From Antedon bifida (lineage: Eukaryota; Echinodermata; Crinoidea; Comatulida; Antedonidae), in assembly GCA_963402885.1 (NCBI GenBank), contig OY727094.1, positions 21,888,501 through 21,952,500 of the forward strand: a stretch of 64,000 nucleotides of DNA, in the 5' to 3' direction. The notes beneath the pieces are model-generated. The model made no database searches, was not told the origin of the DNA, and saw only the letters and a program-made list of their open reading frames with translations. Of the stretch, positions 11,336-63,128 are shown one piece after another; within the stretch, counting starts at the first letter, position 1; each line of letters starts with the position of its first letter. The position numbers and the translations under genes were made by a program.

Positions 11336-11347
11336 TATCTTGAGACC

Positions 11348-17635: not shown

Positions 17636-17680
17636 CACAAATTACAAATTTGGCAGAAATTTTTTGCAAATTCATTATGT

Positions 17681-26920: not shown

Positions 26921-27036
26921 TCCTTGCTCATAATTTTTGGTATCAATGTATAAAAGCAATATCTCTTTCTTTTGATGTAAGTTGATTGTAATTAGATAAT
27001 TAATGACGTCACATAAGGTTATGTTTTTTTTTAAAT

Positions 27037-33695: not shown

Positions 33696-35282
33696 CTAGA
33701 ATTTAATTCGTCACTTTGACGAATTATAGGTGATCATTTTTATCATTTTAATGAAATTAACATTTTTTAAACATGCATGTACGTTAACATACGATCGTAA
33801 AAAGTTGATGTACGCCATCCTATGACATGATGCATACGCTTATAGTGCTGAGTTGTGCCTATTACATGCCATATACAATATTATGTACAGTATATACTGT
33901 ATATCTATATACAGTGTAGCATAGGTGAAATTACGGGACACACATCATGTTCTAATTTTTTGTTATGATGGAATTATCAAAATAAACTCGAAGATGATAA
34001 TTTCGAAAGATAATGAATTGAGCAAATAAATATAAGAATTGGAAGAGAATCTGGCACGTAGAAGCGCTGTGCACGCTCTTTGAAATGTGTATAAAATTTA
34101 CGAAAAAGATGAAAAAACTACTTTTTAACTTCATCTGGCCATATGTTAACGTCACAACATCCGATAGGCTTGGTTTTTATATGAATTCATATCTACATTT
34201 CATCAGCTTTCATAATAAATTATAATCATCAAGGTAACCTTTAATTCTGAAGAGCTGTAAGATATTCAAATTTACGACAAAGGTGAAATTACACGACCTA
34301 CGTTATTCAAGTTTTTACGCGTGATGACGTCATCAAAATGAAAACACTGACAACTTATGAGAAAGATAAATAATTAAGCAAGCACACACTGAAATGTGCG
34401 CAAAAATCGAGCTCAAAAAGCGGAGATACGCTCTATTGAATGTGATAATCCACACAAACCGGAAAAAAATCCTAATTGTTAAATTCAAGTGGCCATTTGA
34501 TGAAGTAATACCATTTTGTACGTCTAATGTGTATATACATTTATATCTACAACTCAATGGCTTCTCGAATAAGTTAAAAAACTTAGGGGTCATCGTGCAT
34601 TCTGAAGAGTTATTTTCATTTTAAAAAGGCCTTATTTTTACCATTTTTAGCACTTTTGTACAATTAATGTGTGCATTTTGTCATTTGTAATGTGCTTGTA
34701 GAGCATTATTTTAAGTGGAAATGGACTCAAATTTGGTGAATGTACTAAGAATTGTGAGTAGAATGTGATTTATACATCAAATTTTATTTTTTACGCTTTT
34801 TACGAATCGCGTGCGCAAAAACGTGTTTTTGCGCAGTAATTTTTTGAAACACGCAAATGGCCTAATTCATGCTCTAAATTGAACAAAACTTAATTTTGAG
34901 CTTTTAAAAATCTTTACGCGCGATTTCACGTGCATGACCTTGAGACGCGCGAGTTTTTATTTGCTAATATTTTTTACCTTGACCTGAAATTTACGTGTAG
35001 TGAATTTCATAAATATGTCATAATCAATTATGGACATATGATTGATAATGTGATTTCACAAAATCGCGTATACGTGACGTCACGGTTGAGTGATCACGCT
35101 GAAAAGCTTATTATGGCTAAGTTAAAGTATTTGAAAGACATTGTGAAATTTTTGTGATCATTGTTATTCAACTTTTTGAGATAATTGCTAAACAAAAGTG
35201 TACAGAAAGAAGAAGAATAATAATAACAATAAAGATTTCATACAATAACAATAGGTGATCATTTTATTCTAAATGATCACCT
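33696..35282 (+). mobile_element. C-type single copy of the hairpin-ended ~1.5-kb element
   Basis: Starts CTAGAATTTAATTCGTCACT. The 5' hairpin AATTCGTCA-CTT-TGACGAATT is at 33705-33725 and the arm AGGTGATCATTT at 33728-33739. It ends in a hairpin with the same arm: AGGTGATCATTT (35253-35264), loop TATTCT, AAATGATCACCT (35271-35282). The body resembles array units throughout: GTGTAGCATAGGTGAAATTA, the TGACGTCA-like sites, GCGCGC-rich tracts and the AGAAAGAAGAAGAATAATA end. It is diverged, single-copy and outside the array. No ORF of note. Confidence 0.78.
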
Positions 35283-36146
35283 AATAAAATAGCCTAGTAA
35301 GTAAAGCATTGCAGGAGGCTTATTATACTATAGAGATGAAAATTCTATCTTATTTAAATTGGGCTAGGCCTTGTTGTTGTTATTACTAGCTAGCTAGGCC
35401 TATGCCATGCAGCCTATCTAGGCTAGTAGCCCAACGTAGTAGTACTGTAGTAGGCCTAGGCTTATTAGTAGAGTCAGGTCTAGCCTAGGCCTAGTCAACT
35501 CTTACGATAAATAACTTAGCTAGGCCCTTTACTTTAGTATGTTTATAACTTATTGTTAGCAAGTATGAGTCAGTACACATCACTTTAGTATTACTGTGTA
35601 CAGTACTTAGATGAACTAAAAATATATTTTCCTCGACGAGCGTGTACTAGCATAAGATTTTGTTGACCTGGAATTTTCCATGCTGGATGGGTCATGTGAC
35701 AAAATTAAACCAATCAAATCGCTTCTTTCAGCGTGTTCGTAGCAACAAGGCCGTTTTTGTTTACACTAAAGGGTTCTATAAAATCGGTTTTTATTGGTCT
35801 ATATCGTACAATCTGTGACATCATTCGTTTATTTTTAGATTCATGAAAAAAATACCTATCGAATGATACCAAGCTTTCAGGGGTTATCTACAAAACTACG
35901 GCATAGGAATGACGAAAATAACTGCTTTTTTGTAACGAATTACCTCGTTCTTTCAATCGAAACACGAGGATAGAGGTTCAGATTTATGTAATTTTTACCA
36001 CCTTTCCATTTGAATTAGTTAATAAGGCATATATTTTTTAAATCTACGGTAAATTTCCTATCAGATAATGGTAAAAAAACAAAATGGTCAAAATATGAGT
36101 TTCACACATTCAAATGCATTTTACACAAATCCCTATCTAGCGACAA
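35283..36146. other. Right part of the TIR element, no gene
   Basis: Rich in TAGGCCTA-type palindromes at 35370-35530. No ORF or RNA gene recognised. Confidence 0.45.
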
Positions 36147-36307
36147 GCGCCTGGTTTTGATGTGGCTGTACACATATATATATACAGTATTAATTAATTA
36201 ATTAACTTAGCCTGGGATTTTTTCAGGGCTAGGCCTAGACAGAATGTCAAGGGTTAAATTAAACTGGAACACATTTGTCTTCCAGACAAATAGCTTCCGG
36301 TTGGTTA

Positions 36308-36400
36308 ATTTTTGATTTAAATTACGATTTTCTTGGGTAAATAATTTTTTTTTCGATCCATTTTTTGGTCAAAGTGAATAACTTTTATGTACAATTAAAA
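36308..36400 (+). repeat. Right half of a TGTATTG-CCCC family MITE, cut by the array
   Basis: GGTAAATAATTTTTTTTTCG, then GTCAAAGTGAATAACTTTTA, aligns with 27255-27315. The copy stops where the satellite array begins at 36407, so the array edge truncates it or inserted next to it. Confidence 0.6.
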
Positions 36401-36406
36401 AAATAA

Positions 36407-37930
36407 CTAGACATGAAACTCGTCACTTTGACGAGTTAGTTATCCGCACCACGACAAACGCCACGTGCACGTCATACGTTGGAATATTCCACACAGATAA
36501 AGATTATGGCATTATGACAAGAACTGAAGAATATGATATGCTGTTAGTGCTGAATTCTGTCAATTTTGTGTCATATAGTATATACATGCAAACAGTATAA
36601 TCTGTATACATATTACATACAGTGTAGAATAGGTGAAATTACGGGACCCGCCATTTATTCCAATTTTTAACATGGCGACGGTATCAAAATGAAACACTTA
36701 GATAGCAATTTCAGAAGGAAATTATCTCAGGAACAACATATTAACGTGTAGAAGAAATTTGAATACGTAAAATATAGATGCGCACCCTTTTAAATGTGAT
36801 GAACTATTACGCAAAATATGAAAATATGACTTTTTTTATTCAACTGGCCATATGATGACGTCACAACATCCGATTGGCAAAATGTTTACATGAATTCGTA
36901 TCTACAATTCAATAGCTTCCAGAAAACGTTTTAATCGTGATTATCACATTTTATTATTACGAGCTATTACAGATTAAATTGTACTGTAAAGATGAAATTA
37001 ATGACCCACGTAATTAAAATTTTTAGGCATGATGACGTCATAAAAATTAAAATATTTTTATCTCATGCTAAAGAAAGTTGATTGACCTACACAATATATA
37101 AATGCAGGAGAAAAAGGAATAAAGATAAGCGTGATGCGCTCCATTGAATGTGATGAACAATAACGAAAGAGACAAAAATCCTATATTTTACATTCGTGTG
37201 GCCATACGATGACGTCACAATGTTTTTTTAGCCTTATCGATGCATAATCCGATATCTACAACTCATCAACTTCTAGATTTTGTAATAAAAATAAACGGTT
37301 AACGGTTTACTTTAGAAACTATGTCTGTTTAAAAAAAGACATAATTTTGACGATTTTTTAAGCTTTTTCATAAAAAACGAGCACGAATTGTCTAATTCAA
37401 CGTGTTCATATGGCGTTATTTAAACTGGAAAAGGTCTAAATTGTTTTCAAAATTACTAGGAAAGGCTTGAAAAATATAATTCAAGAGAAAAAAATATGCT
37501 TTTAACGCTACGTGCGCACCACGTGCGTAAAAAATTGCGCGCCCGTGGGAAATTTTGACATGCTCAAAATGATAAGAAACGCATAAAAAGTTGATTAGAA
37601 ATTAATTTTGCGCATTTTGAAATTTTAAATGCGCGTGCGCGCGTAACTTCTTGTGGAACATGCCATTTTTAATCCGTAGAAAGTTTGCCCCTGATATGAC
37701 TTAAATTTTGTCAAAGTGTCAATACTAAATGACTTTTGGTTTTTAATCTATGATCAATCATTGAAATTCATAAAATTGCGCGTAAGTCACGTTGCGCAAC
37801 TATGACGTCATTCAAAAATAGGAGGTGCACAACTTCACGTAAATGCCCATATGTTGTCAAAGTTATGAAATGTTATGTTTACACATTTTAGAGAAACGTG
37901 ACTCACAAAAAGGAAGGAAGGAAAGAAGAA
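36407..37930 (+). repeat. Array unit 1 (type A, 1524 bp)
   Basis: The cleanest A unit. Module 1 starts GAATAGGTGAAATTACGGGA (~36627) and module 2 AAGATGAAATTAATGACCCA (~36987). The paired sites GGCCATATGATGACGTCACA and GGCCATACGATGACGTCACA lie ~354 bases apart. It ends GAAAGAAGAA directly before the next CTAG, without a 3' hairpin. Confidence 0.85.
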
Positions 37931-39462
37931 CTAGACATGAAACTCGTCACTTTGACGAGTTAGTTATCCGCACAACGACAAACGCCACGTGCACGTCATA
38001 CGTTGGAATATTGCACACAGATAAAGATTATGGCATTATGACAAGAACTGAAGAATATGATATGCTGTTAGTGCTGAATTCTGTCAATTTGTGTCATATA
38101 GTATATACATGCAAACAGTATAATCTGTATACATATTACATACAGTGTAGAATAGGTGAAATTACGGGACCCGCCATATATTCCAATTTTTAACATGGCG
38201 ACGGTATCAAAATGAAACACTTAAATAGCAATTTCTGAAGGAAATTATCTCAGGAACAACATATTAACGTGTAGAAGAAATTTGAATACGTAAAATATAG
38301 ATGCGCACCCTTTTAAATGTGATGAACTATTACGCAAAATATGAAAATACGACTTTTTTTATTCAACTGGCCATATGATGACGTCACAACATCCGATTGG
38401 CAAAATGTTTACATGAATTCGTATCTACAATCCAATAGCTTCCAGAAAACGTTTTAATCGTGATTATCACATTTTATTCTTACGAGCTATTACAGATTAA
38501 AATTTACTGTAAAGATGAAATTAATGACCCATGTAATTAAAATTTTTAGGCATGATGACGTCATAAAAATTAAAATATTTTTATCTCATGCTAAAGAAAG
38601 TTGATTGACCTAAACAATATATAAATTTAGGAGAAAAAGGAATACAGATAAGCGTGATGCGCTCCATTGAATGTGATGAGCAATAACGAAAGAGACAAAA
38701 ATCCTATATTTTACATTCGTGTGGCCATACGATGACGTTACAATGTTTTTTTAGCCTTATCGATGCATGATCCGATATCTACAACTCATCAACTTCTAGA
38801 TTTTGTAATAAAAATAAACGGTTCACGGTTTACTTTAGAAACTATGACTGTTTAAAAAAAGACATAATTTTGACGATTTTTTAAGCTTTTTCATAAAAAA
38901 CGCGCACGAATTGTCTTATTTAACGTGTTCGTATGGCGTTATTTAAACTGGAAAAGGTCTAAATTGTTTTCAAAATTACTAGGAAAGACTTGAAAAATAT
39001 AATTCAAGAGAAAAAAATATGTTTTTAACGCTACGTGCGCACCGCGTGCGTAAAAAATTGCGCGCCCGTGGGAATTTTTGACATGCTCAAAATGACAAGA
39101 AACGCATAAAAAGTTGATTAGAAATTAATTTTGCGCATTTTGAAATTTTAAATGCGCGTGCGCGCGTAACTTCTTGTGAAACATGCCATTTTTAATCCGT
39201 AGAAAGTTTGCCCCTGATATGACTTAAATTTTGTCAAAGTGTCAATACTAAATGACTTTTGGTTTTTAATCTATAATCAATCATTGAAATTCATAAAATT
39301 GCGCGTAAGTCACGTTGCGCAACTCTGACGTCATTCAAAAATAGGAGGTGCACAACTTCACGTAAATGCCCATATGTTGACAAAGTTATGAAATGTTATG
39401 TTTACAAGTTTTTGAGATACGTGAGACACAAAAATGAGGGAGAAAGAAATAAGAAAAAAAAA
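37931..39462 (+). repeat. Array unit 2 (type A, 1532 bp)
   Basis: Almost identical to unit 1 by eye over its whole length, so recently duplicated. No 3' hairpin; ends with an A-rich GAAAAAAAAA junction. Confidence 0.85.
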
Positions 39463-40978
39463 CTAGACATGAAACTCGTCACTTTGACGAGTTAGTTATC
39501 CGCACCACAAACGCCATGTGCAAGTCATACGTTGGAATATTGCACACAGAAAAAGATTATGGCATTATGACCTGAACTGAAGAATATGATATGTTTTTAT
39601 TGCTGAATTCTGTTATTTTGTGTCATATCGTATACACAGTATAATCTGTATACATAGCACATACAGTGTAGAATAGGTGAAATTACGGGACTCGCTATTT
39701 ATTCCAATTTTTAACATGTTAACGGATTCAAAATGAAACGCAAAGGTAGCAATTTTGGAAGGAAATTATCTCAACAACAAAATATTAACGTGTAGAAGAA
39801 ATTTGAATACGTGAAATATTGATGCATGCTCTTTTAAATGTAATGAACTATGACGCAAAAGATGAAAATACGACTTTTTTAAGTCAAGTGGCCATATGAT
39901 GACGTCACAATATCCGATTGGCAAAATGTTCACATGAATTCGTATCTGCAATCCAATAGCTTCCAGAAAATGTTTTAATAGTGATTATCACATATTGTTC
40001 TTACTAGCTATTACAGATTAAAATTTACTGTAAAGATGAAATTAATGACCCACGTAATTTAAATTTTTAGGCACGATGACGTTATAAAAATTAAAATATT
40101 TTTATCTCATGCAAAAAATAGTTGATTGACCTAGACAATATTAAAATCTCGGAGAAAAAAGAATACAGATAAGCGTGATGCGCTCCATTGAATGCGATGA
40201 GCAATAACGAAAGAGACAAAAATCCTATATTTTATATTCGGGTGGCCATACGAAGACGTCACAATGTTTTTTTAGCCTTATTGATGCATGATCCGATATC
40301 TACAACTCATCAACTTCTAGATTTTGTAATAAAAATAAACAGTTCACGGTTTACTTTAGAAACTATGACTGTTTTAAAAAAGACATTATTTTGACGATTT
40401 TTTAAGCTTTTTCATTAAAAACGCGCGCGAATTGTCTAATTCGACGTGTTCGTATAGCGTTATTTAAAGTGGAAAAGGTCTAGATTGTTTTCAAAATTAC
40501 TAGGAAAGGCTTGAAAAATATAATTCAAGAGAAAAAACATGTTTTTCATACTCCGTGCGCACCTTACGCGCAAAATTTTTCGCGCGCGCGGGAATTTTTG
40601 ACATGCTCAAAATGTCATGATCAGCGTAGAAAGTTGATTAGAAATTAATTTTGCGCATTTTAAAATTTTAAATGCTCGTGCGCGCGTAACTTCTTGTGAA
40701 ACATGCCATTTTTAATCCGTAGAAAGTTTGACCTTGATATGACTTAAATTTTTTTTAACGAAGTATCAAAAAAAAATTACGTTTGGTTTTTAATCTATGA
40801 GCAATCATAACAAATCATAAAATCGCGCGTAAGTCACGTTGCGCAACTCTGACGTCTTTCAAAAATAGGAGGTGACCAACTTCAGGTAAATGTCCACATG
40901 TTGTCAAAGTTATGAAATGTTATGTTTACACATTTTAGAGAAAAGCGCTGCACAAAAATAGCGAGAAAGAAAGAAGAA
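39463..40978 (+). repeat. Array unit 3 (type A, 1516 bp)
   Basis: A more diverged A unit (ATGTTAACGGATTCAAAATG in module 1). Its 3' part (GTGACCAACTTCAGGTAAAT) matches units 5 and 6 rather than 1 and 2, suggesting a recombinant. No 3' hairpin. Confidence 0.82.
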
Positions 40979-42520
40979 CTAGACATGAAACTCGTCACTT
41001 TGACGAGTTAGTTATCCGCACGACAAACGCCACGTGCACGTCATACGTTAGAATTTTGCACCCAGAAAAAGATTATGGCATTATGACCTGATCTGAAGAA
41101 TATGATATGTTGTTAGTGCTGAATTCTGTCAATTTTGTGTCATATAGTATATACAGTATAAACAGTATAATCTGTATACATGTTACATACAGTGTAGAAT
41201 AGGTGAAATTACGGGACCCCCGTTTATTCCTATTTTTAACATGGCGACGGTATCAAAATGAAACACTAAGATAGCAATTTCGGAAGGACATTATCTCAGC
41301 AACCACATGTTAACGTGTAGAAGAAATTTGAATACGTAAAATATAGATGCGCGCCCTTTTAAATGTGATGAACTATTACGCAAAATATGAAAATACGTCT
41401 TTTTTTATTCAACTGGCCATATGATGACGTCACAACGTCTGATTGGCAAAATGTTTACATGAATTCGTATCTACAATCCAATAGCTTCCAGAAAACGTTT
41501 TGATCATGATTATCACGTTTTATTCTGACGAGCTATAACAGATTGAAATTTCCTGTAAAGATGAAAATAAGTGACCCACGTTATTTACATTTTTAGACAT
41601 GATGACGTCATAAAAATTAAAATATTTTTAACTCATGCGGAAGATAGTTGATTGACCTAGATAATATAAAAATCGGGGTAAAAATGGAAAACAGATAATT
41701 GGAGATGCGCTCTATTAAATGTCATGCGCTATGATGAAAGATACAAAAATCCTATATTTTATATTCGCGTGGCAATACGGTGACGTCACAATGTCCGGTT
41801 AGCCATATTAATGCATGATCCAAAATCTACAACTCATCAACTTCCAGAATGTGCAATAAAAATAACTTTCACCGTTTAGTTTAGGAACTACGAATGTTTA
41901 AAAAAGGGCATAATTTTGACAAATTTTGACGATTTTTTGAACATTTTCATCAAAAATGCACGTAAATTATCCAATTTGAAGTGCCCGTATGACGTAATTT
42001 TAAGTCGAAATTGTTCAAAAGTTGGTAAAATTACTAGAAAAGGATGGAAAAACATAAATCACGTGAAAAAAATTGTTTTCAACGCTACGTGCGCACCACG
42101 CGCGTAAAAAAATGCGCGCACATGGGAATTTTTTACATGCTCAAAATGACATGAAACGCGTAGAAAGTTGATTAGAAATTAATTTTTCGCATTATAAAAT
42201 TTTAAACCCGCGTGCGCGCATAACTTCGTGTGAAACATGCCATTTTTTTTTCACAGTCAGTTAGCGCAAACTATAACTTAAACTTTTGTTAAGTTTCAAT
42301 TTAAATTGTTATATGGTTTTTGATCTACGTTAAATACGCGAAATTCGTAAAAACGCGCGTAAGTCATGTTACGCAACTCTGACGTCATTTACAATAGCAG
42401 GTGCACAACTTCACGTGAACGCTCATATGTTGACAAAGTTATGAAATGTTATATTAACACGTTTTAGAGATACGCTCTGCACAAAAATGACAGAAAGAAA
42501 GAAGAATACAGAAAAAAAAA
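40979..42520 (+). repeat. Array unit 4 (type A, 1542 bp)
   Basis: Its 5' part resembles unit 6 (TTAGAATTTTGCACCCAGAA). Its second half carries a distinct version (AAACTATAACTTAAACTTTT) that recurs in units 8 and 14. Confidence 0.82.
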
Positions 42521-44112
42521 CTAGACATGAAACTCGTCACTTTGACGAGTTAGTTATCCGCACCACGGCAAACGCCACGTGCACGTCATACGTTGGAATA
42601 TTGCACACAGATAAAGATTATGGCATTATGACAAGAACTGAAGAATATGATATGCTGTTAGTGCTGAATTCTGTCAATTTTGTGTCATATAGTATATACA
42701 GTGCAAACAGTATAATCTGTATACATATTACATACAGTGTAGAATAGGTGAAATTACGAGACCCGCCATTTATTCCAATTTTTAACATGGCGACGGTATC
42801 AAAATGAAACACTTAGATAGCAATTTCAGAAGAAAATTATCACAGGAACAACATATTAACGTGTAGAAGAAATTTGAATACGTAAAATATAGATGCGCAC
42901 CCTTTTAAATGTGATAAACTATTACGCAAAATATGAAAATACGACTTTTTTTATTCAACTGGCCATATGATGACGTCACAACATCCGATTGGCGAAAAGT
43001 TCACATGATTTCGTATCTACAATCCAATAGCTTCCAGAAAACGTTTTAATCGTGATTATCACTTTTTATTCTTACGGGCTATTACAGATTAAAATTTACT
43101 GTAAAGATGAAATTAATGACCCACGTAATTAAAATTTTTAGGCATGATGACGTCATAAAAATTAAAATATTTTTATCTCATGCTAAAGAAAGTTGATTGA
43201 CCTACACAATATATAAATGTAGGAGAAAAAGGAATACAGATAAGCGTGATGCGCTCCATTGAATGTGATGAGCAATAACGAAAAAGGCAAAAATCCTATA
43301 TTTTACATTCGTGTGGCCATACGATGACTTCACAATGTTTTTTTAGCCTTATCGATGCATAATCCGATATCTACAACTCATCAACTTCTAGATTTTGTAA
43401 TAAAAATAAACGGTTCACGGTTTACTTTAGAAACTATGACTGTTTAAAAAAAGACATTATTTTGACGATTTTTTAAGCTTTTTCATAAAAAACGCGCACG
43501 AATTGTCTAATTCAACGTGTTCGTATGGCGTTATTTAAACTGGAAAAGGTCTAAATTGTTTTCAAAATTACTAGGAAAGGCTTGAAAAATATAATTCAAG
43601 AGAAAAAAATATGTTTTTAACGCTACGTGCGCACCGCGTGCGTAAAAAATTGCGCGCCCGTGGGAATTTTTGACATGCTCAAAATGACAAGAAACGCATA
43701 AAAAGTTGATTAGAAATTATTTTTGCGCATTTTGAAATTGTAAATGCGCGTGCGCGCGTAACTTCTTGTGAAACATGCCATTTTTAATCCGTAGAAAGTT
43801 TGCTCTTGATATGACTTAAATTTTCACAACGTGTCAATTAAATATTACTTTTAGTTTTTAATCTATGATCGATCATAAGAAATCATAAAATTGCGCGTAA
43901 GTCACGTTACGCAACTCTGACGTCTTTCAAAAATAGGAGGTGACCAACTTCAGGTAAATGTCCACATGTTGTCAAAGTTATGAAATGTTATGTTTACACA
44001 TTTTAGAGAAACGCGCTGCACAAAAATAGCGAGAAAGAAAGAAGAATAATACAGAAAAAAATATTGATCCCATACAATAACAAGGAGTTATCCGCCAAGT
44101 GCGGATAACTAA
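42521..44112 (+). repeat. Array unit 5 (type A, 1592 bp, with 3' hairpin)
   Basis: Body near-identical to units 1-2. It retains a complete 3' end: ATTGATCCCATACAATAACA then the hairpin AGTTATCCGC-CAAGT-GCGGATAACT (44086-44110), AA and the next CTAG. Confidence 0.85.
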
Positions 44113-45782
44113 CTAGACATGAAACTCGTCACTTTGACGAGTTAGTTATCCGCACAACAAACGCCACGTGCACGTCATACGTTAGAATTTTGCACCCAGA
44201 AAAAGATTATGGCATTATGACCTGATCTGAAGAATGATATGTTGTTAGTGCTGAATTCTGTCAATTTTGTGTCATATAGTATATACAGTATAAACAGTAT
44301 AATCTGTATACATATTACATACAGTGTAGAATAGGTGAAATTACGGGACCCGCCATTTATTCCATTTTTTAACATGGCGACGGTATCAAAATGAAACACT
44401 AAAATACCAATTTCGGAAGGATATTATCTCAGCAACAACATATTAGCGTGTAGAAGAAATTTGGATACGTAAAATATAGATGTGCGCTCTTTTAAATGTG
44501 ATGAACTATGACGCAAAATATGAAAATACAACTTTTTTTATTCAACTGGCCATATGATGATGTCACTACATCTGATTGACAAAATGTTCACATGAATTCG
44601 TATCTACAATCCAATAGCTTCCAGAAAACGTTTTAATTGTGATTATCACATTTTATTCTTACGAGCTATAACAGAATAAAATTTACTGTAAAGATAAAAT
44701 TAATGACCCACGTAATTTAAATTTTTAGGCATGATGACGTTATAAAAATTAAAATATTTTTATCTCATGCAAAAAATAGTTGATTGACCTAGACAATATT
44801 AAAATCTCGGAGAAAAAAGAATACAGATAAGCGTGATGCGCTCCATTGAATGTGATGAGCAATAACGAAAGAGACAAAAATCCTATATTTTATATTCAGG
44901 TGGCCATACGATGACGTCACAATGTTTTTTTAGCCTTATTGATGCATGATCCGATATCTACAACTCATCAACTTCTAGATTTTGTAATAAAAATAAACAG
45001 TTCACGGTTTACTTTAGAAACTATGACTGTTTTAAAAAAGACATTATTTTGACGATTTTTTAAGCTTTTTCATTAAAAACTCGCGCGAATTGTCTAATTC
45101 GACGTGTTCGTATGGCGTTATTTAAAGTGGAAAAGGTCTAGATTGTTTTCAAAATTACTAGGAAAGGCTTGAAAAATATAATTCAAGAGAAAAAACATGT
45201 TTTTCATACTCCGTGCGCACCTTACGCGTAAAATTTTTCGCGCGCGCAGGAATTTTTGACATGCTCAAAATGTCATGATCAGCATAGAAAGTTGATTAAA
45301 AATTAATTTTTCGCATTTTAAAATTTTAAATGCGCGTGCGCGCGTAACTTCTTGTGAAACATGCCATTTTTAATCCGTAGAAAGTTTGACCTTGATATGA
45401 CTTAGATTTTAACTAAGTATCAAAAAAAAATTACGTTTGGTTTTTAATCTATGAGCAATCATAACAAATCATAAAATCGTGCGTAAGTCACGTTGCGCAA
45501 CTCTGACATCTTTCAAAATAGGAAGTGACCAACTTCAGGTAAATGTCCACATGTTGTCAAAGTTATGAAATGTTATGTTTACACATTTTAGAGAAACGCG
45601 CTGCACAAAAATAGCGAGAAAGAAAGAAGAATAATACAGAAAAAAAAAATATTGATCCCATACAATAACAAGGAGTTATCCGCCAAGTGCGGATAACTAA
45701 AAAAAAAAAAAAAAAGATGATGAAACAGGACAGTTACAAGGAGTTATCCGCTGAATGCGGATAACTAATAATACAGAAAAAA
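44113..45782 (+). repeat. Array unit 6 (type A, 1670 bp, two 3' hairpins)
   Basis: Ends with two A-type hairpins, 45674-45698 (loop CAAGT) and 45742-45766 (loop TGAAT), separated by an A17 run and GATGATGAAACAGGACAGTT. The second 3' end is therefore a duplicated terminus. Confidence 0.85.
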
Positions 45783-50400: not shown

Positions 50401-51692
50401 CAAATCTAATATATAGGGGAAAGCTAGCTAGCTTATTTTCACAATGAGTGTACCACAGACTCTTTTCCTTGGCGTATTTTTCCCAGGCCTAGTTACTATT
50501 AGTTTACTAGAGCTGCTGCAGTAGCTAGTTACTGCATGTTCGATCTATACAATTACAATATGCCTATAGCCTAGCTAGCTAGAAGTCATCGAATTTACTA
50601 TCTACTTTGGCCCACTGTAACTAGGCCTACATCCCATTTTTTTTTTTTATGGCGAGTTCAAACCCGTAGCAAAAAAATCCTGTTGGACAACAACACATGA
50701 TTGAAAATGAATGAAATCTGATCCATCCATGTGATGCATGCATGCAGCACACACAACACAGGCACGTTTTGGGCGAATTTATTTGGATCATTCCATATAT
50801 ATAATAGGGAGCCACATGTATTCTACATTTTTATTACATCGTAATTTATGGATTTTACTTACTCGTTTTAAATTTAATATACTGCGGGCCCAATTTAATA
50901 TTTATTTATTTATTTCCAAGTACATTATTATTAATTAAAGCACTTTCAAATTAATAACAGCACATTTTGTATGATTCACTTATTAATGGAACGTACCAAA
51001 GGTAAAGAAATAGCAGAGGGGATAAACAAGACGGAACAGCCTGGGTGGGTTTTTATGCTTGATAGAAAAATAACGTCTTGTAAAATACAGCACCAATTTT
51101 TTTCATTAGCGAAAAATATGAACTAAATCATCATAGGGAATTTAATGTACATATACCGACTGAAAAAAAAACAAACAAATTGTACACTAATTACTGAAGT
51201 CAAGATGCTCCTGCCATTGTAATGTATGCTATCGTCGTCTTGTAAAAAGAGGGACAGTCCCTTTCGCTTGGTAATATGATGCAGTTTGTATACACGCGTC
51301 GTATCGTATACGGATCGTATAATTAGGAAATTGTTTATAAATGATCGTATACGGTTCGTATATGTTTATTATGCGGGCAGGAACTTCCGAATTGGCGTAT
51401 ACGTTTCGTATACGAAATGGACTTCCTATACGAAACATATACGAAACGTATGTAAATCGTATACGTTCGTATACGGCTTTTTTGCAAAGGGTGGTTTTTA
51501 ATCTATGATCAATCATTAAAAATCATAAAATTGCGCGTAAGTCACGTTGCGCAACTCTGACGTCATTCAAAAATAGGAGGTGCACAACTTCATGTAAATG
51601 TCCATATGATGACAAAGTTATGAAATGTTATGTTTACAAGTTTTTGAGATACGCGAGACACAAAAATGGAGGAGAAAGAAAGAAGAATAATA
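47420..51692 (+). repeat. Array unit 8 (type A, chimeric; interrupted by 48628-51491)
   Basis: Starts as A but jumps from TGTATACATG directly to module 2 (~47630), losing module 1. Near 48510 the unit end (AGGAGAAAT) is spliced to a mid-unit CG tract (GCGCATGCGCGCGTAAC). The TIR element then interrupts it, and the unit resumes at TGGTTTTTAATCTATG (51492). About 1.41 kb is satellite. Confidence 0.8.
48628..51491. mobile_element. 2.86-kb TIR element with CGTATACG subterminal arrays
   Basis: The ends CCCTTTGCAAAAAAGCCGTA (48628) and its perfect inverse ending GCAAAGGG (51491) share at least 25 bp, continuing TACG. Within ~210 bases of each end CGTATACG-like palindromes recur: about nine on the left (48641-48835) and at least seven on the right (51287-51476). 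The interior (48840-51280) is AT-rich, holds TAGGCCTA palindromes and encodes no recognisable transposase. It sits inside a satellite unit. The flanks GCATG and TGGTT leave a possible 2-bp TG duplication. Dense subterminal repeats recall CACTA/En-Spm transposase-binding sites, but the end is not CACT-type, so the superfamily is open. Confidence 0.85.
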
Positions 51693-53886
51693 CTAGATTT
51701 GAACTCGTCACTTTGACGAGTTCGGGTTATCCGCGCAAACGCAACATGCACATTCTTAACCATATGAACCTCGACAATTATTATGCCATCCTATGACATG
51801 AAATAAATATGTTTACAGTGCTGAATTGTACGTATTATGTAGCATACATCATATTACAGTATTTTACAGAATAAACTGTATATGTTATATACAGTGTAGT
51901 ATAGACAAAATTACGAGACCCATCTTTTAAATCTAATTATTAACACGATGACGTCATCAAATTGACATATAAAGATAACAATTTTAGAAGATAATTATCT
52001 AAATAATTACATTAAAACAAATTTGAAGAATTTTGGGCACGTAAAAGTGAGATGCGCTCTCGTTTAAACGCAATGAACTTTTACGCAAGAGATGAAAATA
52101 TGACTTTTTGAATTCAACTGGCCATATGATGACGTCACAACATCTGATTGGCAAAATATTCACATGAATTTGTATCTACAATCCAATAGCTTCCAGAAAA
52201 CGTTTTAATCATGATTATCACTTTTTATTCTGACGAGCTATAACAGATTGAAATTTACTGTAAAGATGAAAATAGGTGACCCACGTTATTTACATTTTTA
52301 GACATGATAATGTCATAAAAAAATAAAATATTTTTAAGTCATGCGAAATATAGTTGATTAACCTAGACAGTATTAAAATATCTGAGGAAATGGAATACGT
52401 ATAAGCGAGATGCGCTCTATTTAATGTGATGAGCAATAACGAAAAAGTAAAAAATCCTATATTTTACATTCGTGTGGCCATACGATGACGTCATAACATC
52501 CGAGGGGTAAAGATTCTGCATGAATTCATATCTACAACATATCTGCTTACATATTAAATTTAAAAAATTGGGGGTCGTGGATGATTCTGAGGAGCTATAA
52601 TAGATTAAAAATAGGCATAATTTTGACAATATGTTGTCACTTTTGCAACTAAAACGCGCGCAAATGGTCTAAATCAACGTGTTCGTATGACGTCATTTTA
52701 ATTTAAAATGATGTCAATCTTTTTTAAAATGACTAGGAAAGGCTATAAGATCATAATTCAAGAGAAAAACACATGATTTTTATGCTCTGTGCGCACCTTA
52801 CACGTAAAATTTTTCGCACGCGTGGGAATTTTTGACATGCTCAAAATGTCATGATCAGAAATGATTAGAAATTAATTTTGCGCATTTTAAAATTTTAAAT
52901 GCGCGTGTGCGCGTAACTTTTTGTGAAACATGCCATTTTCAATCCATAGAAAGTTTGCCCTTGATATGATTTAAATTTTCACAAAGTGTCAATACAAAAT
53001 GACTTTTGGTTTATAATCTATGATCAATCATTGAAATTCATAAAATCGCGCGTAACTTACGTAACGGATAAGTAGAGATGCGCTCTATTAAATGTGATGA
53101 GCTATGACGAAAGAGACAAAAATCCTCTATTTTATATTCGAGTGGCCATACGATGACGTCACAATATCCGGTTAGCCATATCGATGCATGATTCGATATC
53201 TACAACTCATCTACTTTCAGAATATGTAATAAACAATAAAATTCACTTTGGAGTTTAGAATCTATGACTGTTTAAAAAAAGGCATAATTTTGACGAATTT
53301 TTGAACTTTTTCATCAAAAACGTGCGCAAATTATCCAATTCGACGTGCTCGTATGACGTGATTTTAAAGCGAAATTGTTAAAAAATTGGTAAAATTACTA
53401 GAAAAGGCTGGAAAAACATAAATCACGCGAAAAAATTATAATTTTGCGCTGCATGCGCGCGCGCGCGTAAAAAATTATTGCGCGCGCGTGGGAATTTTTG
53501 AAATGCTCAAAATGACATGAAACGCGTAGAAAGTTGATTAGAAGTTGATTTTTCGCATTTTGAAATTTTAAACGCGCGTGTGCGCGTAACTTTTTGTGAA
53601 ACATGCCATTTTTAATCCATAGAAAGTTTGCCCTTGATATGACTTAAATGTTCACCAAGTGTCATTACAAAATGACTTTTGGCTTTTAGTCTATGTTAAA
53701 TACGCGAAATTCATAAAATCGTGCGTAACTTACGCTGCGCGACTCTAAAGTAAAAAAACGAACTGTCCTGCACTTCTACAGATAGAGGTCAATCTTCTGA
53801 CAAAGTTGTACAATGTAATGTTGATAAGAATTTGAGATACACGTGACACAAAATTCTGGGAAAGAAAGAAGAATAAGATAGAAAAA
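51693..53886 (+). repeat. Array unit 9 (type B, 2194 bp, partly reduplicated)
   Basis: Complete up to ~53050 (ATCGCGCGTAACTTACG), then it switches back to a mid-unit sequence (GGATAAGTAGAGATGCGCTC) and runs through the second half again to 53886. An unequal recombination product. It contains the longest CG run, GCATGCGCGCGCGCGCGTAA at 53452 onward. Confidence 0.82.
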
Positions 53887-54859
53887 CTAGATTTGAACTC
53901 GTCACTTTGACGAGTTCGGGTTATCCGCGCAAACGCAACATGCACATATTTAACTATATGAACCTTGACAATTAGTATGCCATCCTATGAGATGAAATAA
54001 ATATGTTTACAGTGCTGAATTGTACCTATTATGTAGCATACAGCATATTACAGTATTTACAGAATAAACTGTATATGTTATATACAGTGTAGCATAGACG
54101 ACATTACAAGACCCATCTTTTAAATCCAATTATTAACACGATGACGTCATCAAATTGGCATATAAAGATAACAATTTAGAAGGTAATTATCTAAATAATT
54201 ACATTAATACAAATTTGAAGAATTTTGGGCACGTAAAAGAGAGATGCGCTTTCGTTTAAATGTAATGAACTTTTGTCACTTTTGCAACTAAAACGCGCGC
54301 AAATGGTCTAAATCAACGTGTTCATATGACGTCATTTTATTTTGAAATGATGTCAATCTTTTTTTAAATGACTAGGAAAGACTGTAAAATCATAATTCAA
54401 GTGAAAATCACATGATTTTCATGCTCCGTGCGCACCTTACGCGTAATTTTTTTTGCGCGCGTGGGAATTTTTGACATGCTCAAAATATCATGATCAGCGT
54501 AGAAAGTTGATTAGAAATTAATTTTGCGCATTTTGAAATTTTAAATGCGCGTGCGCGCGTAACTTTTTATGAAACATGCCATTTTTAATCCATAGAAAGT
54601 TTGCCCTTGATATGACTTAAATTTTCACCAAGTGTCATTACAAAATGACTTTTGGTTTTTAGTCTATGTTAAATACGCGAAATTCATAAAATCGCGCGTA
54701 GCTTACACTGCGCGACTCTAAAGTAAAAAAACGAACTGTCCTGCACTTCTACAGATAGAGGTAAATCTTCTGACAAAGTTATACGATGTAATGTTGATCA
54801 GAATTTGAGATACACGTGACACAAAATTCTGGGAAAGAAAGAAGAATAACATAGAAAAA
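53887..54859 (+). repeat. Array unit 10 (type B, 973 bp, internal deletion)
   Basis: Jumps at ~54272 from the module 1 GAACTTTT directly to GTCACTTTTGCAACTAAAAC, losing ~600 bases between. The 3' part is close to that of unit 9 (AACGAACTGTCCTGCACTTC), so neighbouring units were homogenised. Confidence 0.82.
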
Positions 54860-56446
54860 CTAGATTTGAACTCGTCACTTTGACGAGTTCGGGTTATCCG
54901 CGCAAACGCAACATGCACATACGTTTAAAATATATGAACGCCGACAATTATTATGCCATCCTATGACATGAATTAAATATGTTTACAGTGCTGAATTGTA
55001 CCTATTTTGTAGCATACAGCATATTACAGTATTTACAGAATACATTGTATGTTATATGCAGTGCAGCATAGACGAAATTACGAGACCCATCTTTTAAATG
55101 CAATTATTAACAAGATGACGTCATCAAATTGACATATAAAGATAACAATTTTTGAAGATAATTATCTAAATAATTACATTAATACAAATTTGAAGAATTT
55201 TGAGCACGTAAAAGTGAGATGCGCTCTCGTTTAAATGCAATGAACTTTTACGCAAGAGATGAAAATATGACTTTTTGAATTCAACTGGCCATATGATGAC
55301 GTCACAACATCTGATTGGCAAAATATTCACATGAATTTGTATCTACAATCCAATAGCTTCCAGAAAACGTTTTAATCATGATTATCACTTTTTATTCTGA
55401 CGAGTTATAACAGATTGAAATTTACTGTAAAGATAAAAATAGGTGACCCACGTTATTTACATTTTTAGACATGATGACGTCATAAAAATTAAAATATTTT
55501 TAACTCATGCGAAAGATAGTTGATTGTCCTAGACAGTATTAAAATATATGAGGAAATGGAATACGTATAAGCGAGATGCGCTCTATTTAATGTAATGAGC
55601 AATAACGAAACAGTAAAAAATCCAATATTTTACATTCGTGTGGCCATACGATGACGTCATAACATCCGAGGGGTAAAGATTCTGCATGAATTCATATCTA
55701 CAACATATCTGCTTCTATATTAAATTAAAAAAATTGGGGGTAACGGTTGATCCTGAGGAGCTATAATAGATTCAAAATAGGCATAATTTTGATAAAATTT
55801 TGTCACTTTTGCAACTAAAACGTGCGCAAATGGTCTAAATCAACGTGTTCGTATGACATCATTTTAATTTGAAATTATGTCAATCTTTTTTAAAATGACT
55901 AGGAAAGGCTGTAAAATCATAATTCAAGAGAAAAACACATGATTTTCATGCTCCGTGCGCACCTTACGCGTAAATTTTTTCGCGCGCGTGGGAATTTTTG
56001 ACATGCTCAAAATGTCATGATCAGCGTAGAAAGTTGATTAGAAATTAATTTTGCGCATTTTGAAATTTTAAATGCGCGTGCGCGCGTAACTTCTTGTGAA
56101 ACATGCCATTTTTAATCCATAGAAAGTTCGCCCGTAATATGACTTAAATTTTCACCAAGTGTCAATAAAAAATGACTTTTGGTTTATAATCTATGATCAA
56201 TCATTGAAATTCGTAAAATCGCGCGTAACTTACGCTGCGCGACTCTAACGTTATATAACGAAGTTTCCTGCACATCTACAGCTACAGGTCAATCTTATGA
56301 CAAAGTTACACAAAGTTATGTCTACAAAAATTTGAGATATAGCTGCAACAAAAATCCGGGAAAGAAAGAAGAATAAAGATGAAAAAAAAAAAAGATATTT
56401 ACAATCACAAGGGTTATCCGCAACTTTATAAGTTGCGGATAACCAA
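54860..56446 (+). repeat. Array unit 11 (type B, 1587 bp, with B hairpin)
   Basis: A full-length B unit. Its 3' hairpin GGTTATCCGCAACTT...AAGTTGCGGATAACC (56412-56444) has the longest stem in the array (15 bp, 3-base loop) and is followed by AA and the next CTAG. Confidence 0.86.
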
Positions 56447-57942
56447 CTAGATTTGAACTCGTCACTTTGACGAGTTCGGGTTATCCGCGCAAACGCAACA
56501 TGCACATACTTAACTATATGAACCTCGACAATTATTATGCCATTCCATGACATGAAATAAATATGTTTACAGTGCTGAATTGTACCTATTATGTAGCACT
56601 AGCATACACCATATTACAGTATTTTACAGAATAAACTGTATGTTATATACAGTGTAGCATAGACAAAATTACGAGGCCCATCTTTTAAATCCAATTATTA
56701 ACACGATGACATCATCAAATTGACAAATAAAGATAACAATTTTAGAAGATAATTATCTAAATAATTACATTAAAACAAATTTGAAGAATTTTGGGCACGT
56801 AAAAGTGAGATGCGCTCTCGTTTAAACGCAATGAACTTTTATGCAAGAGATGAAAATATGACTTTTTGAATTCAACTGGCCATATGATGACGTCACAACA
56901 TCTGATTGGCAAAATATTCACATCAATTTGTATCTTCAATTCAATAGCTTCCAGAAAACATTTTAATCATGATTATCACTTTTTATTCTGACGAGCTATA
57001 ACAGATTAAAATTTACTGTAAAAATGAAAATAAGTGAACCACGTTATTTACATTTTTAGACATGATGACGTCATAAAAATTAAAATATTTTTAACTCATG
57101 CGAAAAACAGTTGATTGACGTAGACAATATTAAAATCTCGGGGGAAATGGAATACGTATAAGCGAGATGCGCTCTGTTGAATGTAATGAGCAATAACGAA
57201 AGAGAAAAAAATCCTATATTTTACATTCGTGTGGCCATACGATGACGTCATAATATCCGAGAGGTAAAAATTCTGCATGAATTCATATCTACAGTATATC
57301 TTCTAACATAATAAGTTAAAGAAATTGGGGGTCACCTTCGATCCTGAAGAGCTATAATAGATTCAAAATTGGCATCATTTTGACTAAAACGCACGCAAAT
57401 TGTCTAAATCAACGTGTTCGTATGACGTCATTTTAACTTTAAATGATGTCAATCTTTTTTAAAATGACTAGAAAAGGCTGTAAAATCATGATTCAAGAGA
57501 AAAAAACATGATTTACATGCTCCGCGCGCACCTTACGCGTAAATTTTTTCGCGCGCGTGGGAATTTTTGACATGCTTAAAATGTCATGATCAGCGTAAAA
57601 AGTTGATTAGAAATTAATTTTGCGCATTTTGAAATTTTAAATGCGCGTGCGCGCGTAACTTCTTGTGAAACGTGCCATTTTTAATCCATAGAAAGTTTGC
57701 CCTTGATATGACTTAAATTTTCACCAAGTGTCAATAAAAAATGACTTTCGGTTTATAATCTATAACCAATCATTGAAATTCATAAAATCGCGCGTAACTT
57801 GCGCTGCGCGACTCTAAATTCATATAACGAAGTTTCTTGCACATCTACAGCTACAGGTCAATCTTTTGACAAAGTTATACTATCTTATGTTGACAAGGAT
57901 GAGAGATATGCGACGCACAAAAATCCGGGAAAGAAATAAGAA
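56447..57942 (+). repeat. Array unit 12 (type B, 1496 bp)
   Basis: A full B body joined directly to an A start at 57943 after GAAAGAAATAAGAA, without its 3' hairpin. Confidence 0.84.
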
Positions 57943-59466
57943 CTAGACATGAAACTCGTCACTTTGACGAGTTAGTTATCCGCACGACAAACGCCACGTG
58001 AACGTCATACGTTGAAATATTGCACACAGAAAAAGATTATGGCATTATGACCTGAACTGAAGAATATGTTGTTATTGCTGAATTCTATTATTTTGATTCA
58101 TATATAGTATACACAGTATAATCTGTATCCGTATCACATACAGTGTACATGTAGAATAGGTGAAATTACGGGACCCGCTATTTATTGCAATTTTTAACAT
58201 GTTGACGGTTTTAAAATGAAATGCGAAGGTAGCAATTTTGCAAGGAAATTATCTCAGCAACAACATGTTAACGTGTAGAAGAAATTTTAATACGTGAAAT
58301 ATTAATGCGCGCTCTTTTAAATGTAATGAACTATGACGCAAAATATGAAAATACGACTTTTTTTATTTAACTGGCCATATGATGACGTCACAACATCTGA
58401 TTGGGAAAATTTTCACATGATTTGGTATCTACAATCCAATAGCTTCCAGAAAACGTTTTACTCGTGATTATTACATTTTATTCTTACGAGCTATAACAGA
58501 TTAAAATTTACTGTAAAGATAAAATTAATGACCCACGTAATTTAAATTTTTAGGCATGATGACGTTATAAAAATTAAACTATTTTTAACTCATGCGAAAG
58601 ATAGTTGATTGACCTAGATAATATTAAAATCTCAGAGAAAATGGAAGACGGATAAGCGTGATGCGCTCCATTGAATGTGATGAGCAATAACGAAAGAGAC
58701 AAAAATCCTATTTTTTACATTTGTGTGGCCATACTATGACGTCACAACATCCGTAAGGAAAAAATTTTGCATGAATTCATATCTACAACATATCTGCTTA
58801 CATATTAAGTTAAAAAACTCGGGGGTAACGGTTGATCCTGAGGAGCTATAATAGATTCAAAATAGGCATAATTTTGACAATATTTTGTAACTTTTGCAAC
58901 TAAAACGTATGCAAATGGTCTAAATCAACGTGTACGTATGACGTCATTTTAATTTGAAATGATGTCAATCTTTTTAAAAATGACTAGGAAAGGCTGGAAA
59001 ATCTCAATTTAATAGAAAAAAACATGATTTTCATGCTGCGTGCGCACTGCACGCGTAAAATTGTTCGCGCGCGCGGGAAATTTTGACATGCGCAAAATGT
59101 CATGAATGGCGTAAAAAGTTGATTAGAAATTAATTTTGCGCATTTTAAAATTTTAAATGCACGTGCGCGCGTAACTTCTTGTAAAACATGCCATTTTTAG
59201 TTAACTAAAAGTTTGCCCTTGTTATGACTTAAATTTTCACAAAGTGTCAAAACAAAATTATGCTTGGTTTTTAGTCTATGAGCAATCATATAAAATCATA
59301 AAATCGCGCGTAAGTCACGTTGCGCAACTCTGACGTCATTCAAAAATAGGAGGTGCACAACTTCACGTAAATGCCCATATGTTGACAAAGTTATGAAATG
59401 TTATGTTTACCCATTTTAGAGATACGCTCTGCACAAAAAGTGAGGGAGAAAGACAGAAGAATAATA
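57943..59466 (+). repeat. Array unit 13 (type A/B mosaic, 1524 bp)
   Basis: A start and an A-like module 1. Module 2 changes near 58750 to B-like text (GCATGAATTCATATCTACAA, GATCCTGAGGAGCTATAATA) and the tail returns to A-like. A mosaic from recombination between subfamilies. Confidence 0.8.
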
Positions 59467-61180
59467 CTAGACATGAAACTCGTCACTTTGACGAGTTAGT
59501 TATCCGCACGACAAACGCCACATGCACGCCATACGTTGGAATATTGCACACGGAAAAAGATTATGGCATTATGACCTGAACTGAAGACTATGATATGTTG
59601 TTATTGCTGAATTCTATTATTTTGATTCATATATAGTATACACAGTGTAATCTGTATACATATCACATACAGTGTAGAATAGGGGAAATTACGGGACCCG
59701 CTATTTATTGCAATTTTTAACATGTTGATGGTTTTAAAATGAAACGCGAAGGTAGCAATTTTGGAAGGAAATTATCTCAGCAACAACATATTAACGTGTA
59801 GAAGAAATTTGAATAGGTGAAATATTAATGCGCGCTCTTTTAAATGTAATGAACTATGACGTAAAATATGAAAATACGACTTTTTTTATTTAACTGGCCA
59901 TATGATGACGTCACCACATCCGATTGGCAAAATTTTCACATGATTTTGTATCTACAATCCAATAGCTTCAAGAAAACGTTTTAATCGTGATTATCACATT
60001 TTATTCTTACGAGCTATTACAGATTGAAATTTACTGTAAAGATGAAATTAATGCCACACGTAATTTAAATTTTTAGGCATGATGACGTCATAAAAATTAA
60101 AATATTTTTAACTCATGCTAAAGATAGTTCATTGACCTAGACAATATCAAAATCGGGGTGAAAATGGAAAACGGATAAGTGGAGATGCGCTCTTTTAAAT
60201 GTGAGGAGTTATGACGAAAGATACAAAAATCCTAAATTTCATATTCGCGTGGCCATACGATGACGTCACAATGTCCAGTTAGCCAAATTAATGCATGATC
60301 TGATATCTACAACTCATCAACTTCCAGAATGTTTAATAAAAATAATTTTTACCGTTTAGTTTAAAAACTACGATTGTTTAAAAAAAGGCTTAATTTTGAC
60401 GAATTTTTGAAGTTTTTTATCAAAAAAGCGCGCAAATTATCATATTCTACATGCTCGTATGTCGTAATTTGAAGTCGAAATTGTTTAAAAGTTGGTAAAA
60501 TTACTAGAAAAGGCTGGAAAAACATAAATCACTCGAAAAAATGATGTTTTTAACGCTACGTGTGCACCACGCGCGTAAAAATTTGCGCACGTGTGGGAAT
60601 TTTTGACATGCTCAAAATGACATGAAACGCGTAGAAAGTTGATTAGAAATTGATTTTTCGCATTGTAAAATTTTAAACGCGTGTGCGCGCGTAACTTCGT
60701 GTAAAACATGCCATTTTTAGTGCACAAAAAGTTAGCGCACGATATAAATTAGACTTTTGCTAAGTTTCAATTTAAATTGTTATATGGTTTTCGATCTATG
60801 TTAAATACGCGAAATTCATAAAAACGCGCGTAAGTCATGTTGCGCAACTCTGACGTCATTCAATTATAGGAAAGCACAACTTCACGTGATTGCCCATATG
60901 TTGACAAAGTTATAAAATGTTAACTTTACACGTTTTAGAGATACGCTCTGCACAAAAATGACAGAAAGAAAGAAGAATAATACAGAAAAAAAAAAAAAAA
61001 AAAAAGATGATGAAACAGGACAGTTACAAGGAGTTATCCGCCATAGTGCGGATAACTAATAAAATTGAAACAGGACGATTACAAGGAGTTATCCGCTACT
61101 AAGCGGATAACTAATAAAGATGAAAAAAAAAGATATTTACAATCACATGGGTTATCCGCAACTAAGTTGCGGATAACCAA
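59467..61180 (+). repeat. Array unit 14 (type A, 1714 bp, A-A-B terminal hairpins)
   Basis: Ends with three hairpins in series: A (61032-61057, loop CATAGT), A (61087-61112, 11-bp stem) and B (61150-61178). The GAAACAGGAC spacer recurs before the A hairpins and AAAGATATTTACAATCACAT precedes the B hairpin. Each hairpin thus has its own upstream signature. Confidence 0.85.
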
Positions 61181-61232
61181 CTAGATTTGAACTCGTCACT
61201 TTGACGAGTTCGGGTTATCCGCGCAAACGCAA
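61181..61232 (+). repeat. Truncated B start at the array's right edge
   Basis: CTAGATTTGAACTCGTCACT, the hairpin, GGGTTATCCGCGCAAACGCA, then an abrupt change to unrelated sequence at ~61233. Confidence 0.82.
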
Positions 61233-63110: not shown

Positions 63111-63128
63111 TATTATTAACCCGCTGGA

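Follow-up and report, generated by a model that had tools for sequence, protein, structure and literature searches.

Matched terminal repeats and apparent nesting of Helentron-type elements in the crinoid Antedon bifida

Introduction

In the genome of the crinoid Antedon bifida, a stretch of 64,000 nucleotides (C7:21888501-21952500; hereafter the window) holds, at positions 33696-61232, a row of repeat units that follow each other head to tail at about 1.5 kb. Do these units form a tandem array, and are the two ends of each unit coupled? A preliminary description made from the sequence had read them as a tandem array of one element in three subfamilies (A, B and C) whose terminal hairpins and arms change together at both ends, and had proposed that the ends are recognised together in a single-strand, possibly rolling-circle, transposition. 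Herein, we examine these proposals in the window and in the genome (315.6 Mb searched, 27 contigs, denoted C1, C7 and so on).

In Helitron2 elements, a 5′ asymmetric terminal inverted repeat (ATIR) lies within the 5′ hairpin and a 3′ ATIR lies upstream of the 3′ hairpin, the ATIRs measuring 8-15 bp (PMC3627910). Bao and Jurka (2013) presented compensatory end changes in two related elements, Helitron-1N1_CQu and -1N2_CQu, and suggested that the two ATIRs, by pairing, open the 5′ hairpin and define the end point (PMC3627910). For Helentrons, the family rule of Thomas et al. (2014) is at least 11 bp of identical subterminal inverted repeat (subTIR; PMC4067079).

We conclude, with a probability of about 0.9, that the units belong to a Helentron/Helitron2-type family with autonomous and non-autonomous (HINE) copies, arranged as nested self-insertions. 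"Helentron-type" is used here in a wide sense, since strict Helentrons carry an AP-like endonuclease fused at the C terminus and the 5′ end of the C7 autonomous copy was not in the stretch read.

Results

Terminal structure of the elements

Within the window, 16 exact copies of the 3′-terminal hairpin core TCGTCACTTTGACGA lie on the + strand, from 33708 to 61207, and none on the other strand; three further matches, each with two mismatches, lie at 20862-21296 (chance mean 0.12 at up to two mismatches). The arms adjoining the hairpins are A AGTTATCCGC, B GGTTATCCGC and C AGGTGATCATTT, the C arm standing at 33728 and again at 35253-35282. The preliminary description had located these signals correctly and reversed their labels. 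Since the terminal layout equals that of Helitron2 and of HINE/Helentron elements, the end with CTAG, hairpin and arm, which it called 5′, is the 3′ end of an element on the complementary strand. The true orientation is 5′-TT-[ATIR arm : loop : complementary arm]-pyrimidine-rich leader-body-ATIR′-hairpin-CTAG-3′.

Ten terminal 5′ hairpins are present in the window, each made of an arm and its complement. They fold in 10/10 paired copies, at -5.8 (the mutated copy U3) to -16.7 kcal/mol (DNA parameters, without shuffled comparison). At the other end, the 3′ ATIR begins about 31 nt from the element end and is followed downstream by the 3′ hairpin, whose stem changes from C-G to T-A between A/B and C. 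The inverted repeats are short and asymmetric, the 5′ copy being terminal and the 3′ copy subterminal, with an identical subTIR of 11 bp in A (one mismatch in U3), at least 11 bp in C and 10 bp in B. The elements differ from canonical Helitrons (Helitron1) in starting with 5′-TT, a hairpin and an ATIR rather than with 5′-TC, though they too end in CTAG. Eleven open reading frames of at least 120 aa exist in the window and none within 33696-61180, as expected of HINEs, which have no coding capacity.

The two arms of one copy lie about 1.5 kb apart, farther where a later copy intervenes. They agree at 10/10 positions in nine of the ten paired copies and at 9/10 in U3. Across subfamilies, the A and B arms differ by one core base and agree at 9/10 positions (8 with the mutated arm of U3), while C agrees with A/B at only 5-6/10. 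Thus, the proposal that the ends change together held in all ten paired copies of the window. The C arm is indeed changed at both ends; calling it unrelated to A/B went too far, as B and C agree at 6/10 positions.

Nesting in the window and in a second array

To resolve the array, 3′ ends were scored as opening brackets and 5′ hairpins as closing brackets, and the arm type was compared for each pair. Of 15 array copies (U1-U15, Table 1), five have the far hairpin directly at their end, in four it is displaced downstream by later insertions into the leader, and six are unclosed in the window; the earlier picture of a tandem array with lost far ends is thereby replaced. Bracket types matched for 10/10 closers in the window and 9/9 closers of the array, an outcome given by one of the 84 relabelings of the nine. 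When each closer was instead paired with the nearest preceding opener, types matched in only 8/10. A/B copies are mutually 72-97% identical (U1/U2, 97.0%), and the solitary C copy shares 54-61% identity with U1-U8 and U10-U15, all of A/B type (not counting fragments). Several adjacent copies fall in different subfamilies, which together with the A/B identities argues against recent tandem duplication.

A second array, C1:9945763-9967941, was selected from the genomic match list for its mixed types and is the only other array bracketed whole. Its arms were typed by hand, and its D-type hairpins, which carry a bulge, were located via their terminal arm. Twelve openers and twelve closers of four arm types formed 12/12 type-matched pairs with none left over, as happens in 1/110,880 relabelings.

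If a copy sits inside the leader of another, the host leader should resume beyond the insert. We compared ten interrupted hosts with uncut leaders. The U13 leader resumes across its insert like that of U12, with a clean cut, and at the first cut of U3 the leader resumes cleanly and exactly like that of U5. In the second array, the leaders of A3450, D1896 and D14521 resume like uncut A and D leaders; the D1896 and D14521 cuts show 0 mismatches, and what gaps there are fall in ATG repeats or at the margins of the compared piece. C8226 is colinear at both cuts and differs upstream.

Exact end-to-end junctions occur at 44110/44113, 47417/47420, 56444/56447 and 61178/61181, which is compatible with circular intermediates without proving them. 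A U5/U6 dimer appears unlikely from the identities, U6 being 92.7% identical to U5 and 94.9% to U3. Outside the window, a stacked pair of B-type 5′ hairpins on the + strand at C7:22010206 is compatible with a nest continuing there, again without proof.

Coupling of the ends across the genome

The 3′-end pattern has 4135 exact genomic matches, against 0 for a reversed-pattern control. A single match in viral contigs and another in bacterial genomes were taken as chance, since the surrounding stretches hold no element structure. In a first sample, comprising the first 49 matches on C1 (in 40 stretches), closers were identified from the known arms, a search that would miss any others, and B and F closers are indistinguishable because these types share a terminal arm. 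All 37 pairs formed were type-matched (C-C 18, A-A 15, B with B/F 2, F with B/F 1, D-D 1). With the 12/12 pairs of the second array, this check, which the preliminary description had named as the one that independently assorting ends would fail, did not refute coupling in the copies sampled. An arm-blind search of the same stretches for perfect hairpins of at least 9 bp, which bulged hairpins escape, revealed no rival with the usual leader.

The same hairpin skeleton can carry different arms. The constant skeleton TGCAACTTCGTTGC (D skeleton) occurs 297 times in the genome, in a pattern that permits 16 arm combinations, four of them matched. Among the 100 occurrences listed, 99 had matched arms (65 D GGTTTTCC, 26 F GGTTATCC and 8 A AGTTATCC) and one was mixed. 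We chose 40 of these 100 by hand (7 A, 1 mixed, 20 F, 12 D) and found a 3′ end at the expected place for 29, of the same type in 20 and of another type in 9. Nesting predicts that the latter contain an inner closer of the type seen. Such a closer was present in 9/9 cases (leftmost A in 8, C in 1), so these cases are read as nested. Three of the five same-type A cases are nested too and two are direct A pairs; for the 7 D and 8 F same-type pairs, the distances leave little room for inner closers. One skeleton thus bears three arm versions, each matched 1.5 kb away where nesting was resolved.

For single copies, an arm match alone could be plain inheritance. Copies with exchanged parts are more telling. 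In copy 9731 of the second array, the 3′ part is A-like and the body D-like, and the hairpin has a D skeleton with A arms on both sides; its outer terminus recurs in the two direct A pairs, which probably belong to one lineage with it. In U14, A ends enclose a B-like middle, and copy 12839 of the second array combines a B-type outer terminus with an A arm and an A closer. As far as sequence comparison can tell, these few copies, with exchanged interiors or termini and yet matched arms, speak for functional coupling. Selection after recombination would explain arms that stay matched while their neighbours are exchanged; templated rewriting might too.

At C9:33576901-33578465, B-type 5′ hairpins are stacked at 54-bp steps, three in a row, twice. 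These may be elements with multiple 5′ termini.

Landing site and target

Next, we sought to determine where new copies land. Among the first 100 listed of the 4135 matches, 39 lie in clusters, and 29 of 30 neighbour pairs within 2 kb are on the same strand. In all 29 same-strand close pairs the spacing is 1456-1804 bp, with no value under 1400 (the second array supplies 11 of these pairs, and the landing events of close neighbours may not all be independent). This spacing fits entry at or next to the host leader, beside the 5′ hairpin and in host orientation. Of the AA dinucleotides of an element, 9-14% fall in the final 85 bp ahead of the hairpin (six complete window copies); therefore, a free choice among AA sites fails to explain entry into the leader.

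In 37 paired copies, the base before CTAG was A in 37/37 and the next base out A in 35/37, while the two bases after the 5′ hairpin were AA in 37/37, followed by T in 27, A in 9 and C in 1. Because the second base before CTAG is not A in 2/37 whereas AA after the hairpin is invariant, TT was assigned to the element, and the target in true orientation is best read as A/T^TT, with TT at the element 5′ end. In comparison, the DINE-1 target is W^TT (PMC2374699). When the U3 and U13 sites are rejoined, two of four As are gone. Across the joined flanks of one C copy, the divergent paralogous repeat 27022-27336 of the window (74%) runs without a duplicated block, though the site lies in poly-A. The absence of a flanking duplication, which the preliminary description had tied to a Helitron or Helentron, was borne out: none longer than the ambiguous TT was seen in the 37 copies, the rejoined sites and the one paralogous site. 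Judged from these flanks, insertion would proceed without target duplication beyond that TT, with a 2-bp TT duplication as the less likely reading.

An autonomous partner with Rep and PIF1 domains

The last unit (U16, 61181-61232) had been taken as a truncated array unit. A truncated HINE was rejected, as the unit is the 3′ end of a gene-bearing element whose Rep and PIF1 domains lie just beyond the window. The window sequence from 61181 has 40 scored genomic matches, the ten longest covering 86-620 bp of the query. For seven of these ten, a Rep match follows on the same strand after 7.9-9.3 kb, a distance that in two cases was extrapolated from partial matches; the seven include a C15 copy (100% over 620 bp) and the C7 copy of the window itself. 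For the remaining three, the closest of the Rep matches compared is 13-26 kb away. The C7 Rep match at 21957610 (window coordinate 69110) is 7.9 kb from the B-type 3′ end of the window, and it shares an open frame of 2277 aa with a PIF1 match (21959695). This gene is on the + strand, antisense to the 5′ to 3′ direction of the element. At least two Rep genes (C7, C15) thus stand behind a B-type 3′ end. In the genome as a whole, 39 Rep matches (Helitron_like_N) are present, 38 of them over the cut-off; 25 of the 39 lie in open frames of 1300-3182 aa.

On C8, a relative codes for an OTU-like protease domain; its frame 3-2501 in addition matches Herpes_teg_N (E 2.3e-08), seemingly another cysteine-protease-like domain. 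Short repeats with CTCAGAAGAGATCC in the non-coding part of the autonomous element occur both in the C7 copy, at 63128-63176, and in the C8 copy, within the first 1200 bases of a stretch read there. One leader, at first taken as a mark of the autonomous copy, proved to be a common HINE leader (694 matches at up to one mismatch), and the C8 right end is therefore not claimed as an autonomous 5′ end.

Table 1. Copies of the family at the array locus (window coordinates)
Feature	Position	Strand	Remarks
Solitary C-type HINE	33696..35284	-	CTAG at 33696; 3′ hairpin ~33704-33726; 3′ ATIR 33728-33739
Solitary C-type HINE, 5′ side	5′ hairpin 35253-35282; TT end 35283-35284	-	
U1, A-type HINE	36407..37930	-	5′ leader interrupted; 5′ hairpin outside window
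U2, A-type HINE	37931..39462	-	sits in U1 leader; 5′ hairpin outside window
U3, A-type HINE	39463..47417	-	three pieces (39463-40978, 45767-45782, 47364-47417) around later insertions
U4, A-type HINE	40979..45766	-	two pieces (40979-42520, 45699-45766); in U3 leader; cut in poly-A
U5, A-type HINE	42521..44110	-	uninterrupted; in U4 poly-A leader
U6, A-type HINE	44113..45698	-	uninterrupted; exactly at U5 5′ boundary
U7, B-type HINE	45783..47363	-	uninterrupted; in U3 leader
U8, A-type HINE with deletions	47420..48519	-	joined at 48519/48520 to U9 tail
U9, remnant copy	48520..51692	-	48520-48627 and 51492-51692, split by foreign inverted-repeat element
U10, B-type HINE, 2194 bp	51693..53886	-	5′ hairpin outside window
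U11, B-type HINE	53887..54859	-	internally deleted; 5′ hairpin outside window
U12, B-type HINE	54860..56444	-	uninterrupted
U13, B-type HINE	56447..61178	-	two pieces (56447-57942, 61113-61178); cut exact
U14, A-type ends, B-like interior (mosaic)	57943..61112	-	57943-59466 and 61058-61112; in U13 leader
U15, A-type HINE	59467..61057	-	uninterrupted; in U14 leader
Autonomous Rep-Hel element, 3′ end and non-coding flank	61181..64000	-	B-type 3′ terminus; runs off window

Other features of the window

The motif TGACGTCA, a palindrome resembling the cAMP response element (CRE), has 47 copies in 33696-61232, against 0.41 expected, and one elsewhere in the window. Its copies define 46 spacings, of which 17 measure 170-185 bp (13 at 177-178), which suggests degenerate central repeats of about 178 bp. 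The foreign 2.9-kb element inside U9 (48628-51491) is bounded by 24-bp terminal inverted repeats (CCCTTTGCAAAAAAGCCGTATACG) and contains numerous GTATACG motifs; no long target duplication was evident from its flanks. Unlinked to the nest are tandem repeats of about 200-212 bp at 20763-21679 and of 172 bp at 33199-33589. Frames of a retrotransposon of the long interspersed nuclear element (LINE) type lie on the minus strand at 5476-18931, with three reverse transcriptase matches and endonuclease matches.

Discussion

Matched arms (ATIR/subTIR) are what defines Helitron2 and Helentron elements, so the coupling seen here belongs to a known kind. The assignment to the Helentron/HINE type and the statement that the array is no passive satellite, both made in the preliminary description, are supported. 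Its rolling-circle mechanism fits family membership, and it is from that membership, rather than from observed movement, that rolling-circle transposition is inferred. By analogy, a Rep-Hel protein would nick the element and then circularise or replicate one strand. The 3′ ATIR, which matches the 5′ hairpin and could displace it, would mark the stop for the machinery, as Bao and Jurka (2013) proposed. Elements with mismatched ends would transpose poorly, and the arms would consequently change at all three places together. Insertion would favour [A/T]^TT within T-rich sequence, a kind of site that the 5′ leader of the element itself would offer; through this preference, copies would accumulate inside one another in one orientation.

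Several results weigh against nested self-insertion, or leave its account incomplete. The cuts in U14 and in the second-array copies C400 and 9731 gave no clean alignment, and the U4 cut and the second U3 cut fall in poly-A. A Mantel test of A-copy leader pieces against bodies under the bracket pairing was not significant, either with windows out of register (80/720 permutations) or in register (148/720), and host private substitutions exceeded those of the insert in only 5/10 comparisons. Recombination among copies may blur these leader/body and private-substitution tests. In the C1 stretches, 12/49 3′ ends had no recognised 5′ hairpin and two hairpins had no opener; 11/40 D-skeleton hairpins had no 3′ end where it was looked for. 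As to the autonomous copies, the 5′ end of the C7 copy was not found in the stretch read, which holds C copies, no terminus was found in the left stretches of the C8 copy, and neither C8 end could be placed with certainty.

The leader/body tests, which gave nesting no support, would suit a tandem array produced by satellite-like amplification, through unequal crossing-over or rolling-circle read-through, in which 5′ ends were lost, or stacked through end bypass. The head-to-tail units at about 1.5 kb, the 97.0% identity of U1/U2 and the mutual mosaicism of the copies point the same way, and tandem Helitron arrays are known (PMC4067079, PMC5148889). However, several split leaders continue beyond the insert, bracket types match 9/9 and 12/12, the predicted inner hairpins were found 9/9, several neighbours come from different subfamilies, and U5/U6, although exactly head to tail, are only 92.7% identical. 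We therefore regard tandem amplification as very improbable. We give still less credence to a cut-and-paste miniature inverted-repeat transposable element (MITE) with subTIRs and a 2-bp TT target duplication. Excising the insert from U3 or U13 costs two As, as such a duplication would, and DINE-1 was once read in this way (PMC2374699). Against it stand the non-A two bases before CTAG in 2/37 copies beside the constant AA after the hairpin, the asymmetric ends and the CTAG-3′ terminus. Furthermore, the element that has the same B terminus codes for Rep and PIF1 domains; no search was made for a DDE transposase gene between these termini.

An explanation that concerns the coupling alone, leaving the nesting and the family assignment in place, is that matched ends reflect shared descent of the subfamilies with no functional tie. 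Most copies are consistent with inheritance of whole elements, A and B arms are only one core base apart, and the recombinants are few, some perhaps of one lineage. Yet U14, 9731 and 12839 keep matched arms, two further copies with the outer terminus of 9731 have an A-armed hairpin and a direct A 3′ end, and one skeleton occurs with three different arms, with agreement at the far end in every version. Descent alone is thus improbable in our view, and functional coupling within nested self-insertions is preferred. A bolder extension, which we offer as doubtful, is that the ATIR arm acts as an exchangeable address that has to agree at three sites 1.5 kb apart and may be rewritten as an element gains a new 3′ end (as A-armed D-skeleton hairpins with A 3′ ends may suggest), and that the leader is a dedicated landing pad, allowing recursive growth in which nest order records insertion history.

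The elements resemble Helitron2 in their two hairpins, in ATIR placement, in a gene that is sometimes antisense and in the stop proposed for it; in comparison with that account, several arm versions, dozens of copies and nested arrays are present here, the 3′ end is CTAG, and a relative encodes an OTU-type protease domain (PMC3627910). With Helentron, HINE and DINE-1 elements they share palindromic subTIRs, a 3′ palindrome and a T-rich, W^TT-like target without longer duplication (PMC4067079, PMC2374699), and with Helentrons and HINEs also the excess of non-autonomous copies over Rep-Hel partners, the OTU protease and some genes in minus orientation (PMC4067079). The 5′-TT and CTAG-3′ ends resemble the proto-Helentron of Thomas et al. 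(2014), while the 3′ ATIR begins about 31 nt from the end here and 38-60 bp in mite HINEs (PMC4067079). For FoHeli self-insertions in Fusarium, single cases and short duplicated 5′ ends are described, whereas here a 12-copy nest was fully resolved and 29/29 close same-strand neighbours fit leader entry (PMC5148889). The HINE-borne satellites of the oyster likewise show element-specific subTIR changes in both flanks and central repeats (the Cg170 satellite); there, tandem repeats lie within single elements, and here whole elements are nested (PMC7492417). No fully resolved nest of a similar kind was found in titles and abstract openings, with article bodies searched by word only and subscription journals mostly outside the search.

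The element is of a known kind, and the case shows end coupling and growth by self-insertion with unusual completeness. What is new is that an apparent tandem array is a nest, that spacing points to leader entry, that one skeleton carries three arms, and that the last unit is the 3′ end of a Rep/PIF1 element. In the literature passages considered, the role of the paired Helitron2/Helentron end repeats rested on inspection of a few families. A single genome now offers 4135 exact 3′ ends, interchangeable arm versions, natural recombinants and Rep genes in long frames, and the stop-signal hypothesis becomes directly testable. From nests of this kind, the relative order in which copies were inserted can be read, and repeated insertion can build what looks like a satellite array.

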